This document shows, piece after piece, positions 769 through 5,402 of a stretch of 5,402 nucleotides of DNA. This DNA comes from Actinomycetota bacterium. Its GTDB lineage: Bacteria; Actinomycetota; Actinomycetes; Streptosporangiales; Streptosporangiaceae. The position numbers and the translations under genes were made by a program. The notes under the pieces were generated by a model. It was not told where the DNA came from. It made no database searches and saw nothing but the letters and a program-made list of their open reading frames with translations. The stretch spans positions 1 to 5,402 of the forward strand of contig PMOU01000366.1 of assembly GCA_003161205.1 (NCBI GenBank), given 5' to 3'. Each line of letters opens with the position of its first letter. Within the stretch, counting starts at the first letter, position 1.

Positions 769-2097
769 TCACATCTGGATGACTGACCTGCGGTTCACGA
801 CCCGGCTGAGAGCTTCGACGGCTCCGGGGTCATATTCACGAGCGGTGTCGAGCCGGAGCTGCTGCACTGCCGCCGCCGCCCGGCCAGGATCCAGCGAGCT
901 GCCCACCAGGTCGTCGAAGGCATTGGCCGCCTTGATGATGCGGCTGCTCAGCGGCGGGCCGGCCGGTTTGCGGTCGCCCGGGTTATTGCCGTAGCCGCCG
1001 GTCACCGGATCGCCGTCGCGGTAAGGGTCGTTCTGCCTGCGCACGATCTCCGCTACGGAACCCAGGACCTGCGCCTGCTGGATGACGTCGGCGCCGAGCT
1101 CGGCGATGCGCTGCTGATCCTTGGGCGAGACGAAGATCGTGGCTCCGCCGGTGATCGGATCGCGCAGCGAGAGCTGCCCGATGTCGTGCATGAGCGCCGC
1201 GTATTCCAGCTCGAGGAGCTGCGGTTCATGGATGCCGAGCTCCCGGCCGATGGCGACGGCAAGCCTGCTGACCCGTTCGGAGTGGCCGGGCTCGACGTAA
1301 CCGCCGATCTCGGTGACCTTGGCGAGCGCGCGGACGGTCTGCAGGTAGGTCGCGCGGATCCCGGCGTACCTGCGGAACGCCACCTGGGTGACGAGCAGCG
1401 GAGCGGTGAACACGGCCAGCGCGGCCAGCCCCATCACGTCCGCGGCGAACGCGATAAGCAGCGCCGAGGCGCCGACCGCGGCACCCAGCGGAAGCTGAAC
1501 GCGCAGCTCGTCCACCAGCGCCACCCGGAACCTGGCCCGCTGCTCGTCGACCCGCAGCACGGCGGTGAGAACCGCCTCGAGCAGCAGCGCGAAAATGGCC
1601 AGCAACGTCATCAGCGAGAACTCGAGCCCCGCGTCCCTGGCGAGGGCCGCGTTCCCCGCGAGCGGGCGGAAGATGTAGGCGACGCACGCGACGCACAGCA
1701 AGCGCGCGGCCATCCCGCTCAGCCGGGCGGGCCGGCCGACAGCCAGGTGCGGCAGGGCCCCGACGATCATGCCGATGGTGGCGACCGTCACCACCTGCGC
1801 GGCACTGTGCTGACTCGGGTGATCCCCGACCCGGATGAGCAGGGCGTAGGCCAGCGCCCCTGCGAACCCGATGGGCGCGGACTCGCGGTCACCCGGCAGG
1901 TTCAATCGGAGCACCTCGCCGAACGCGATCAGCGCGCCGAACGCGATCGCGATCCGGGCATCTTGCACGCCAGTCGCCGCGGTTTGCGCCACTGAGGCCA
2001 CCAGCCACACTCCGGCGGCCACCACGAGCAGCATCTGGCCGGAATCCCGTACCTGCCAGGGATACCAGCGAAGCTCGTTTCGTCGTTCGGTCATCAC
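769..2097 (-). CDS. Membrane-anchored degenerate HD-GYP-like protein (probable non-catalytic paralogue)
   Basis: This 442-residue protein has about six or seven hydrophobic segments over residues 20-240, then a cytoplasmic HD-type domain to the C terminus. Its layout matches the gene just upstream, so the two look like paralogues. Kept features are Glu263, His272 in GHSERV, and the His304-Asp305 pair. Lost features are: the Lys of HDxGK is Gln308; the downstream His-Pro is missing; the His-His motif is Arg/Gln (RRQND); the GYP motif is GGYG in a Gly/Asp/Asn-rich loop (about 358-372); and the Asp of ADAFD is Asn392. These positions bind metal or define HD-GYP phosphodiesterases, so hydrolysis of cyclic-di-GMP is unlikely. 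A regulatory or partner role for the intact paralogue is inferred. The start is GTG 2097-2095, immediately followed by ATG 2094-2092. Only five bases separate it from the upstream stop, so the pair is almost certainly co-transcribed. Confidence 0.85.
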   Translation of the reverse strand: MMTERRNELRWYPWQVRDSGQMLLVVAAGVWLVASVAQTAATGVQDARIAIAFGALIAFGEVLRLNLPGDRESAPIGFAGALAYALLIRVGDHPSQHSAAQVVTVATIGMIVGALPHLAVGRPARLSGMAARLLCVACVAYIFRPLAGNAALARDAGLEFSLMTLLAIFALLLEAVLTAVLRVDEQRARFRVALVDELRVQLPLGAAVGASALLIAFAADVMGLAALAVFTAPLLVTQVAFRRYAGIRATYLQTVRALAKVTEIGGYVEPGHSERVSRLAVAIGRELGIHEPQLLELEYAALMHDIGQLSLRDPITGGATIFVSPKDQQRIAELGADVIQQAQVLGSVAEIVRRQNDPYRDGDPVTGGYGNNPGDRKPAGPPLSSRIIKAANAFDDLVGSSLDPGRAAAAVQQLRLDTAREYDPGAVEALSRVVNRRSVIQM

Positions 2098-2102
2098 GAT
2101 CT

Positions 2103-3446
2103 CTACAGGCTATCGATCACCCGGAGCGGTGCGGTGGGATCGTCGTGATCCTGCGCCGCCACCGCGGCCAGCTCATCGGCGGCCACGACGGGCGGCGCCG
2201 GACGATGCCAGCCGTCACGCTTGATCGCGGCGACGAAGGCGTCGACGAAGGCCGGGTCGAACTGCGTACCCGACCATTTCCTCAGCTCGGCGATAGCTTC
2301 ATCGGCCGGGCGCGCACCCCGGTAAGACCGGTTGGATGTCATGGAGTCGAAGGCGTCCGCGACCGCGAGTATCCGGGCGAACTCGGGAATCTCATCGCCG
2401 GCCAGCCCCATCGGGTAACCGCGACCGTCGATGCGCTCGTGGTGGTGCATGATCCCGGCCAGGGCCTCGTCGAGGAAGCCGATCTCCCGGACGATATCCA
2501 GCCCGCGCATCGGGTGAAGCTGGATCGCCGCGTACTCCTCTTCGGTCAGCTTGCCCGTCTTCTGCAGGACCTTCGTCGGGACGCCGAGCTTGCCGACGTC
2601 GTGGAGCATGCCGGCGTACCTGATCGCCTCCACGCGATCGCCCCGCATGCTGACCTCGCGGGCGATCATCACCGATCCCCGGGAGACCCGGTCGCTATGA
2701 CCGCGGGTGTAGAAGTCCTTGGTCTCTACCGCCTGGCACAACGCGCCGACCGTGGCCTCGTAGGCCTGTTGCTGCTCGGTGAATTGCGCGACCGCCCAGC
2801 GGGCCACGAACAGCGGGATCAGCACCAGCAGCGGCGCGAACACCCCGACGACGGTCCATAGCGCCGCGATGAGCAGCCCGAACGCCCCGTAGGCGAGATC
2901 GGAGATCAGCAGCCGCGCACTCAGCCCGACGCCGGACCGGGACAACGGGCGCTCCGGCCCCCGGGTCAGCCACAGGATGCCGCCGAGCAACGCGTGATTC
3001 GCGGCCACCTGGACCAAGGCTGCGACGGCGAACGGCCTGATGATGCCGGGAAAGGAACTTGCCCGGGTCAGGCCGACGTGACCGCCGAGGGCAATAAAGG
3101 CACGTCCGGCTAGGTAAGCGCTGAGGGCGTACACCGCCGCGTTGAAACCGCGCTGCAAGGCAGTGGGGCCGCGGCGCAGGGCCAAGGCGCTGAACGTTCC
3201 TACCAGGGCCGCGCCGACAGGACCGGTCAGGACGACCGAGGCAAGCATGGCGACCGAACTAGGAGTCCAGCTCAGCTGTCCTTGCCGCAGTGGCGTCGGT
3301 CGTGATTCGGCGATGACAACGAGAATCCCGAGAGCAACGATGTAATGCCAGCTCAAGCCGGTAAATGGACCCTTGGCAACGAATACGGCGGCGGCGACCG
3401 CCACCGCGCCAATGTAAAGCAGCGCGACCCGCGAGAGCTTGCCCAA
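2103..3446 (-). CDS. Membrane-anchored HD-GYP domain protein, probable cyclic-di-GMP phosphodiesterase
   Basis: This 447-residue protein has an N-terminal membrane half with about six hydrophobic segments (roughly 5-25, 33-47, 64-90, 101-120, 135-162, 178-218). An HD-GYP domain follows (about 228-412), then a disordered, Ala/Asp/Pro-rich tail. All diagnostic residues are visible: Glu241; His250 in TRGHSDRV; His282-Asp283 and Lys286 in HDVGKLG; His311 in LHPMRG; HHHERIDGRGYP at 334-345; and Asp364 in VADAFDSMTS. This is the complete set for a metal-dependent cyclic-di-GMP phosphodiesterase. The membrane half would sense an unknown signal. The start is TTG 3446-3444, set by a strong ribosome site and by an in-frame TGA six codons upstream. 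It is the first gene of a pair with the degenerate paralogue and lies about 350 bp behind rsrA. Streptomyces encodes HD-GYP proteins named HdgA and HdgB (recalled); orthology to either was not tested. Confidence 0.92.
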   Translation of the reverse strand: MGKLSRVALLYIGAVAVAAAVFVAKGPFTGLSWHYIVALGILVVIAESRPTPLRQGQLSWTPSSVAMLASVVLTGPVGAALVGTFSALALRRGPTALQRGFNAAVYALSAYLAGRAFIALGGHVGLTRASSFPGIIRPFAVAALVQVAANHALLGGILWLTRGPERPLSRSGVGLSARLLISDLAYGAFGLLIAALWTVVGVFAPLLVLIPLFVARWAVAQFTEQQQAYEATVGALCQAVETKDFYTRGHSDRVSRGSVMIAREVSMRGDRVEAIRYAGMLHDVGKLGVPTKVLQKTGKLTEEEYAAIQLHPMRGLDIVREIGFLDEALAGIMHHHERIDGRGYPMGLAGDEIPEFARILAVADAFDSMTSNRSYRGARPADEAIAELRKWSGTQFDPAFVDAFVAAIKRDGWHRPAPPVVAADELAAVAAQDHDDPTAPLRVIDSL

Positions 3447-3797: not shown

Positions 3798-4070
3798 CTA
3801 CTCGGCGAACTCGATCGTCGTGCGGACTTCCCTGATCCTGACGAGAATCTTCGCACGCAGCGCCGCAGGCGCCGGGTCACAGCCGCAGTGCTTTTGCACC
3901 ACGCGCTTGACCGCCTCCTCCAGGCCGTATTCGCGCAGGCAGGGACCGCACTCCGTCAGGTGCTGACGGATCTTCGCGCAGTCCATGTCGTCAAGCTCGC
4001 CGTCGAGGTAGCCGTAAACCCGGTCGAGTACCTCGGTACACGGCGTCTCGTGCGGGTGTCCGCAGCTCAT
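3798..4070 (-). CDS. rsrA: RsrA/RshA-type zinc-binding redox-sensing anti-sigma factor
   Basis: This is a 90-residue zinc-containing anti-sigma protein. In the reduced state it would bind and silence the adjacent SigR-type sigma factor; thiol oxidation would expel zinc and release it. The core is present at the same numbering as recalled for Streptomyces coelicolor RsrA: Cys3, Cys11, Cys31, His37, Cys41 and Cys44, with HLTECGPC as the HxxxCxxC motif. Cys11, Cys41 and Cys44 are the ones tied to zinc binding and the regulatory disulfide. The C-terminal cysteines are Cys62 and Cys64 (HCGC) rather than the adjacent pair recalled for Streptomyces, and the tail after them is shorter. ATG 4070-4068 overlaps the sigma stop as ATGA and has GGGGAGGA at good spacing, so the two genes are translationally coupled at a fixed ratio. 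Confidence 0.95.
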
Positions 4071-4801
4071 CGCGATTCCTCCCCGGCTGCCGAGTCGTCC
4101 GAACCAGTCTTGGCCAGTCCGCGATCCGCCGCGTAGTCCTGGAGCAGTTCCCGCAGCTGGCGGCGACCGCGGTGCAACCGCGACATCACGGTACCAATCG
4201 GCGTTTCCATGATGTCGGCGATCTCCTTGTACGCGAAGCCTTCGACGTCGGCCAGGTAAACAGCGATCCTGAATTCCTCGGGCAGCGCCTGCAGCGCCTG
4301 CTTGATGTCAGAATCGGGCAGCCGTTCCAGCGCTTCGGCTTCGGCTGACTTCAGGCCGCCCGAGGTGTGCGACGCCGCCCGCGCCAGCTGCCAGTCCTCG
4401 ACCTCCTCCGCACCAGAACGCTGCGGCTCACGCTGCCGCTTGCGGTAGGTGTTGATGAAGGTATTGGTCAGGATCCGGAAGAGCCACGCCTTCAGGTTGG
4501 TGCCCTGCTGGAATTGGTGGAAGGATGCGTAGGCCTTGGCGAACGTCTCCTGCACCAGGTCTTCCGCATCCGCCGGATTGCGGGTCATCCGAAGCCCAGC
4601 GGAGTACAGCTGATCCAGGAAGGGCAGCACCTCCTGCTCGAAGCGCTCACCGCGCTCTTCGAGAGTCTCCGGAACGGGACCCACCCCCTCTAGGTAGTCC
4701 GAGGCCGGACTGCGAACATGCAGACCGTATGAGCGGGAGGATACCGTGCCGGAGCTAAAAGCTTCCGCCAGCATGCCCCGAGGGGGCGAAGCCACTGCCA
4801 T
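4067..4801 (-). CDS. sigR: ECF RNA polymerase sigma factor of the SigR/SigH family (thiol-oxidative stress)
   Basis: Region 2 is clear ([20 protein letters not shown] through [20 protein letters not shown], about residues 66-120 from the start chosen here). So is region 4 ([20 protein letters not shown] through [15 protein letters not shown], about 173-207). The sequence is nearly identical in these blocks to Streptomyces SigR and M. tuberculosis SigH as I recall them. It would direct RNA polymerase to thioredoxin, mycothiol and protein-repair genes under disulfide stress. The start is uncertain. The frame is open to GTG 4840, but a SigR-type promoter occupies 4836-4811, so a stress transcript begins near 4803. 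ATG 4801 is the first start such an RNA could use, perhaps leaderless. ATG 4774 and GTG 4684 are alternatives. GTG 4684 follows AGAGGGG closely and matches the expected core start. It overlaps rsrA by ATGA and is divergent from the methyltransferase gene. Confidence 0.95.
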
Positions 4802-4810
4802 GTCGCGTGT

Positions 4811-4836
4811 AACACGGTGCCGCTGCCGGTCATTCC
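4811..4836 (-). promoter_or_regulatory. SigR/SigH-type promoter upstream of sigR (autoregulatory)
   Basis: On the minus strand GGAAT (4836-4832) is followed by exactly 18 bases and GTT (4813-4811). This matches the GGAAT-N18-GTT consensus of SigR promoters. It faces sigR and predicts a transcript start about 7-9 bases on, near 4804-4802. This supports positive autoregulation, as known for sigR in Streptomyces and sigH in mycobacteria. Confidence 0.75.
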
Positions 4837-4840
4837 GCAC

Positions 4841-4977
4841 CCCTGCGGCCTTGTGGCCCGGAGCGAGAATATCCGGCCTAGTTACTGCGAGCCGGCAGGT
4901 GACAAAAGCGCCCAGCCGGGAAAGTATGTCGTAGGCGTGCTGGAGGCGAGGGACGCCGAGTCAGGAGTTCTGCGCTA
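4841..4977. other. Divergent promoter region between sigR and the methyltransferase-like gene
   Basis: These 137 bp separate the longest sigR frame from the GTG of the plus-strand gene. The plus strand carries AGGAG (4963-4967) ten bases before GTG 4978 and an in-frame TGA at 4900-4902. No plus-strand GGAAT-N18-GTT is present; the GGGAAA at about 4918 lacks a GTT partner. I could not find a convincing housekeeping -35/-10 pair on either strand, although a second, constitutive sigR promoter is expected from Streptomyces. Confidence 0.4.
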
Positions 4978-5402
4978 GTGCAACATGCGGCCAGCGCGAT
5001 CACCGCGCCGGACACTGATGACCTTCCGGCCTACTGGAAGTTTCACGAGGCCGTGACACGCGCGCAGCTGGCGGCCTGGCTGCCGCCGGGACGGCGCGTT
5101 CTCGTTGACGTGTCGGGACGGCGCGCGCCGGGCGCGGAGGTAGCCGCCCAGGCCGGGCACACCGTGATACGTGTTGTCAGTGCCGGCCCCGGGGGGCGAC
5201 CCCCCGGGATCCCCCCGATTACGGGGGGGCTTCCCGCCCCCCCGTACCCCCCTGGGCCCCCCTCCGGGGGGCGGATCATCCCGCTGATCGGCGACTCAAG
5301 CAGCCTGTCCTTCCTCACGGACGCCTGCGCGGACGGGGTCATCGCCGACGACCGGGCGCTGTCCACCTACCTGGCGGCCGAAACGATGATCGCGGAGATC
5401 GC
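4978..5402 (+). CDS. SAM-dependent methyltransferase-like protein with an in-frame low-complexity insert (5' part)
   Basis: Only the first 141 codons are visible; the frame is open to the window end. GTG 4978 is the first start after the in-frame stop at 4900 and has AGGAG ten bases upstream. LPAYWKFHEAVTRAQLAAWL (16-35) resembles the N-terminal helix of actinobacterial class I methyltransferases. It is followed by the first Rossmann strand, RRVLVDVSG (39-47), and by the next helix and strand (AEVAAQAGHTVIRVV, 53-67). The segment IIPLIGDSSSLSFLTDACADGVIADDRALS looks like the D-S/A-x-x-L acidic strand and the following strand of the fold (100-129). Motif I reads DVSGRRAPG instead of DxGxGxG, so SAM binding is not assured. 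Residues about 70-99 form a Gly/Pro-rich insert encoded by G/C palindromes. The substrate is unknown, and family assignment is by fold pattern only. It is divergent from sigR and could share its control region. Confidence 0.7.
   Translation, partial: MQHAASAITAPDTDDLPAYWKFHEAVTRAQLAAWLPPGRRVLVDVSGRRAPGAEVAAQAGHTVIRVVSAGPGGRPPGIPPITGGLPAPPYPPGPPSGGRIIPLIGDSSSLSFLTDACADGVIADDRALSTYLAAETMIAEI
5184..5274. repeat. Cluster of G/C homopolymer palindromes inside the methyltransferase-like gene
   Basis: Eight runs of six or seven G or C lie within about 80 bp: 5191-5196 G, 5200-5205 C, 5211-5216 C, 5223-5229 G, 5237-5243 C, 5247-5252 C, 5257-5262 C and 5266-5271 G. They form perfect hairpins. 5188-5208 has 9-bp arms around CGA. 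5211-5228 has 7-bp arms around ATTA. 5220-5246 has 10-bp arms around CTTCCCG. 5257-5271 has 6-bp arms around TCC. The block is translated in frame as about 30 Gly/Pro-rich residues. I know no named element with this sequence. Confidence 0.8.

Follow-up and report, generated by a model that had tools for sequence, protein, structure and literature searches.

In-frame palindromic inserts in protein-coding genes are described chiefly from Rickettsia, with isolated cases elsewhere (available excerpts of PMC3733652 and PMC10969869). In the excerpts of PMC10969869, a review of MITEs, the Rickettsia palindromic elements (RPEs) are presented as in-frame insertion at its most extreme, and actinobacteria are unmentioned there. 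The GTAG/CGTC REPs, as treated in the accessible part of PMC3733652, are small palindromes, one end of which bears an unpaired tag. They form dimers and clusters and lie mostly in intergenic regions; some of them are found within genes, dnaE2 and further repair genes among them. That part of the paper makes no mention of actinobacteria, Streptomyces or Frankia. Among the matches listed in a literature search, judged by their titles and with few subscription papers or preprints covered, there was no publication on such a repeat in Streptosporangiaceae.

We analysed a 5402-base stretch of actinobacterial DNA, hereafter the window, in which a block of G- and C-rich palindromes interrupts a methyltransferase-like gene. 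We read this block, with a probability of roughly 85%, as a single copy of a palindromic repeat, non-autonomous and dispersed, that belongs to soil actinobacteria of the Streptosporangiaceae type. The host gene (4978..5402, plus strand) is an open frame cut by the window edge; of its 96 homologues, one bears a database annotation of Pfam PF08241, and a Pfam search with the window's piece of the gene matched no model. Its context on the minus strand comprises genes for a SigR/SigH-type sigma factor (4067..4840; TIGR02947 above cut-off) and an RsrA-type anti-sigma factor (3798..4070; TIGR03988 above cut-off). Elsewhere in the window lie two adjoining minus-strand genes with HD_5 domains (769-3446) and a small biotin/lipoyl carrier gene (371-583). 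The frame from 4978 stays open across the insert, giving a 31-residue Gly/Pro-rich linker (residues 68-98), and returns to the motif IIPLIGD, which is conserved in the homologues. This bears out an earlier reading made from the sequence only, which had placed a frame-preserving linker of about 30 residues between GHTVIRVV and IIPLIGD.

The whole copy spans 85 bp (5178..5262, both ends approximate) on the plus strand, and is thus forward relative to the gene. It begins with a 5' tag, CAGTGCCGGCCCC (5178..5190, plus strand), corresponding to a family consensus of approximately TGYTRGCCC directly before the first G run. There follow, all on the plus strand, a first hairpin delineated by inverted-repeat and fold analysis (5188..5208, nine-base arms, loop CGA), a C6 tail 3' of it (5211..5216) that is conserved there in all four copy sets compared, a second hairpin with eleven-base arms that is present in only part of the family (5220..5246), and a C6-TGGG-C6 tail (5247..5262) that also occurs in two copies in relatives, L173 and L199. 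The bases beyond (5263..5271, plus strand) are probably the rest of the native linker, since the orthologue at locus L002 has CCGGGGGCGCGGATCATC at that place. We located all four of the tight, perfect inverted repeats of G/C runs that had been claimed for the block, at 5188-5196/5200-5208, 5211-5217/5222-5228, 5220-5230/5236-5246 (11-bp arms) and 5256-5262/5266-5272; because the second and third overlap, the four cannot all form simultaneously. The block had originally been delimited as 5184..5274, and while the interruption itself stands, its edges call for correction: the conserved tag moves the start to about 5178, and the last arm (~5263-5272) probably belongs to the native linker. The window has eight G/C runs of at least six bases, every one of them within 5184-5274; mononucleotide shuffles of the whole window yield about 10 such runs, and hence it is their clustering and not their number that is unusual. 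As single-stranded DNA, the segment 5180-5280 folds better than 200 of 200 shuffles (z -2.4). The copy is open in five of the six reading frames.

The case for a dispersed repeat comes from its relatives. These were located by a genome scan with an alignment of homologues (A1); the same scan with the window protein alone as query found no relative, and a search of viral contigs found nothing. Of the genomes with DNA, the nearest are metagenome bins, with identities adjoining the host gene of 86% for G002 (901 bases), 81% for G003 and 80% for G001. The best other copy, L173 in G002, is identical to the window copy at 68 of 75 ungapped positions, with an alignment score of 115, where 500 block shuffles scored 33 at most, and the copy in the ilvB gene of G003 (L199) shows 69 identities over a 75-base span. 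A comparison of four copy sets gave the family consensus as approximately TGYTRGCCC-GGGGGG(A)CGACCCCCC-nGACCCCCCG, with a second hairpin added in some copies. Of 341 genomes in the family, 173 contain the core, GGGGGG(N)CGACCCCCC, with tens of copies in some, against 0-1 per strand per genome for the reversed control; raw match counts for the core are upper bounds, as the optional base (N{0,1}) makes the pattern list seven-G copies twice in one orientation. The same core was present in 42 of 394 genomes sampled over the class, a sample that partly includes family members. It also occurs in named isolates, such as Herbidospora solisilvae (at most 11 matches) and Actinoallomurus iriomotensis (at most 8 matches). 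The copies elsewhere in the genome that the sequence-only reading had anticipated were sought in the nearest relatives with DNA, and after removal by eye of double-listed rows scattered copies were found at 45 places in G003 and 38 in G002; G003 contains a second, partial ilvB (C259:17159-18193, 86% identity), and hence this 9.5-Mb bin may be composite and its counts may cover more than one organism. A pattern in which a short loop separates six G from six C likewise far outnumbered its reversed form in part of the family, as in G003 (234 vs 17) and G033 (108 vs 4), with little or no excess in many other family members.

Copies occur singly or as short tandem arrays. The second hairpin was recognised in 14 of 76 copies in G002/G003 and in 22 of 36 tRNA-type copies. 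Among the 14, 12 preserve the hairpin's second outer pair, using three pair types (6.2 on average in shuffles, of which 1 in 2000 reached 12), and 11 preserve its first outer pair (reached in 21 of 2000), with no pairing excess at the third and fourth outer pairs. Tandem spacings were divisible by three in 18 of 27 cases (P 0.0004), collected by hand with equal spacings per array merged and with the opposite trend in G033 (1 of 6); given this collection, merging and counter-trend, and that unit length alone could suffice, we attach little weight to these spacings as an indication of selection for coding. On average, dispersed copies have 5.37 of six frames open (n = 152), a small excess over the 5.08 of random pieces from the same loci (n = 759). 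In G003, we also observed a second family of G6/C6 palindromes, which has cores like GGGGGGTTGGTTTGTACCCCCC (C19:17338, C38:7298/7352/7406 and others), one place showing a 54-base spacing.

A substantial number of the copies reside in frame inside genes. A crude codon model, trained on these same loci, classed 34 of 177 sites over all sets as in-frame genic, including 22 of 70 in G002/G003 (11/31 and 11/39, respectively), 7/13 in G253, 3/34 in G332, 1/25 in G033 and 1/35 in the tRNA-type set; this count excludes copies less than 270 bases from the locus start or less than 300 from its end, and includes one locus (L154) on both strands. With a stricter codon model, 14 of 74 sites in G002/G003 were in frame, 8 had different frames, 43 had coding sequence on a single side and 9 were noncoding. 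Thus, tabulated by place and frame as had been suggested, copies lie in frame in unrelated genes as well as in noncoding DNA. NCBIfam models cross the insert above cut-off in IlvB, HemA, SdaA, TreY, RhaI, HpnE and MurD, and below cut-off in MetH, GltB, PaoC and PcaB, the first two of which are truncated at the locus edge. In alignments to solved structures, the insert falls in a gap for GltB, HemA and rhamnose isomerase; for MurD and IlvB the alignment breaks into two pieces on either side of it, the second of which is weak for IlvB. The in-frame copies stand in both orientations relative to the gene and use all six frames, encoding peptides such as GDDPP, GGRPP and GGTTP in the forward frames and GGSSP, GGRPP and GVVPP in the reverse frames. 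At four loci (L245, L259, L270 and L322), tandem copies in open frames result in repeated peptides, for example RGGLGGSPPRAS twice in the MurD frame. One in-frame copy lies in a frame that appears DnaE-like by eye (L301).

A different association emerged in the tRNA-type set, where 28 of 38 distinct copies follow a tRNA or tmRNA gene, sharing its strand and lying at a near-fixed distance past its 3' end: 46-70 bp in 24 cases and 11-12 bp in four; these loci were picked for paired hairpins or as the first match of each genome, and are hence a non-random sample. The tRNA-linked copies come from, among others, Actinoallomurus iriomotensis, A. spadix, A. soli and Actinomadura sp. DC4. This raises the alternative that the element is a functional RNA, such as a terminator or stabiliser behind tRNA genes, with chance copying accounting for its presence elsewhere. 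Such an activity could be the role of the tRNA-linked copies, but as an account of the whole family we consider it unlikely: no copy lies past a tRNA/tmRNA 3' end among 77 in G002/G003, 15 in G253 and 13 in G332, the in-frame copies have either orientation, and an Rfam search of window positions 4850-5402 gave five matches, none at the gathering score, so that no known RNA family was matched. The notion that the repeat is always tRNA-linked was likewise rejected for the nearest kin by the 0/77 count. In two groups of loci (L117-L136 and L211-L237), the tRNA-linked copies apparently lie 3' of the tRNA's own terminator-like hairpin. Beyond the 28, three further copies (L133, L134 and L136) seem by eye to follow a broken tRNA 3' half of the kind that integrative elements leave; the remaining copies of the set have no such neighbour.

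We then considered the host gene among its homologues. The motif upstream of the linker is present in 90 of 96, and 26 of these 90 have a repeat-typical peptide somewhere downstream; several of the peptides (e.g., P0024 and P0052), judged from the peptides alone, read as the repeat in reverse orientation. In 61 of the 90 by pattern (about 58 by eye, the pattern mislabelling P0007, P0018 and P0019), the downstream motif is not reached in frame. Such a proportion might suggest a phase-variable tract, in which slipped-strand mispairing at the G/C runs switches the gene on and off, a possibility compatible with residence of a dispersed repeat. Nevertheless, we regard switching as improbable, as frame breaks, contig ends and assembly errors are indistinguishable among those proteins, runs of six or seven bases are short for switching, and the repeat is present in genes of more than one kind. 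In the comparison with relatives that had been proposed with the sequence-only reading, the three nearest orthologues with DNA (L001/L087, L002 and L003/L089) are free of the repeat, but they do not display its precise absence: their linkers are shorter, at 18-23 residues, and unrelated. Thus, an empty site shorter by exactly one repeat was not seen for the window gene, the linker of L002 being both different and shorter. Given a linker whose length varies in any case, and a repeat-typical peptide in 26 of 90 homologues, the methyltransferase linker is better viewed as a recurrent site than as the scene of one clean event.

The repeat occupies loops that are variable anyway in IlvB and HemA too. 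For IlvB, 30 genomes were searched and 29 loci read, of which 22 gave the region and seven, including that of G002, went unmatched by the reading pattern. Among the 22, only G003 has the repeat, in reversed orientation and of the window type; in the others the loop is nearly absent (LGTAIPDY) at one extreme and reaches about 30 unrelated residues at the other. The HemA search covered 15 genomes and yielded the region at 10 loci: the residues between landmarks number 63 in G002, which has the repeat, 39-52 in eight others, and 86 in G335, where the sequence is another one. Similar variable loops without the repeat in IlvB and HemA, together with the variation in length and sequence of the methyltransferase loop, are what one might expect of a native low-complexity linker grown by slippage of G/C runs with no dispersed repeat involved. 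This we hold to be very improbable, for slippage fails to explain the 68 of 75 identities with a copy in another species, and equally the common tag and tail and the intergenic and tRNA-linked copies. Sequencing or assembly artefacts, to which homopolymers are prone and metagenome bins (several of the source genomes) might add, can for practical purposes be set aside, as the core recurs in independent assemblies including named isolates and the frames of conserved enzymes continue over the copies.

Returning to the dispersed repeat as the preferred reading, the dispersed and in-frame copies support the original conjecture of a mobile or expanding palindrome that tolerates insertion into genes, with movement itself being inferred. 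The unit would spread as DNA, probably by means of an enzyme acting in trans. It would often land in genes, because such a genome is mostly coding; the flexibility of the Gly/Pro/Arg/Ser-rich peptide that the unit encodes may render it tolerable in proteins, and selection would retain the frame-preserving copies that fall in loops and remove harmful insertions. As for a mover, the transposase search relied on PF01797 (RAYT/Y1), beyond the reach of which Y1 genes could be missed. It gave no match in G002, G003, G040 and G335, some of the genomes being incomplete bins. Matches were obtained in G001, G033 and G332, and the six loci concerned (L165-L170) were without a G5...C5 hairpin with a 2-10 base loop. 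A RAYT system as the mover is thus not supported, no PF01797 gene lying beside copies. As a bolder and decidedly speculative proposal, the repeat could represent a new class of palindromic element in Actinomycetota, resident at a near-fixed distance past tRNA/tmRNA genes and in some lineages invading coding genes in all six frames; it would move without RAYT/Y1 and repeatedly lengthen the loops of housekeeping enzymes (IlvB, HemA and MurD), and its decayed copies would explain some of the extra loop sequence in relatives.

A seemingly unrelated family in free-living actinobacteria, whose genomes are large, would demonstrate that essential enzymes can acquire coding sequence from short repeats in genomes that are not reduced. 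The repeat is hence a possible source of new protein sequence, and, as differences at the same loops exist between related species, the question of how proteins gain segments becomes directly testable. There is also a consequence for annotation, as many predicted homologues of the host gene end before the conserved part 3' of the linker.

Finally, the repeat may be set beside the systems outlined at the outset. With MITEs, as described in the available part of PMC10969869, it shares shortness, non-autonomy and the ability to make in-frame fusions; it differs in that long terminal inverted repeats and a parent transposon were not found here. With the GTAG/CGTC REPs, it shares the form of a small palindrome tagged at one end, the grouping of copies and the presence of some copies in genes (excerpts of PMC3733652), as in the DnaE-like frame mentioned above. 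In contrast to them, its tag is TGYTRGCCC before and nGACCCCCCG after the first hairpin, which is not of the GTAG/CGTC form, and, unlike the GTAG REP/RAYT pairing, a RAYT gene flanked by the repeat was not found where Y1 genes are present. Together with REPs, the closest known kind is that of the RPEs, with which it had been compared in principle: these too are short, multi-copy palindromes lying in frame in unrelated metabolic genes (excerpts of PMC10969869 and PMC3733652), and in-frame insertion in coding genes was found here at 34 of 177 sites, with enzyme models spanning the inserts. However, the hosts are actinobacteria by their record titles and not members of the Rickettsiales, with a free-living habit and GC-rich genomes of several Mb, and the repeat, set against RPEs by description only, has G6/C6 arms, copies past tRNA genes and use of all six frames. 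We regard the repeat as a new form of the REP/RPE kind that lies outside the families tested.
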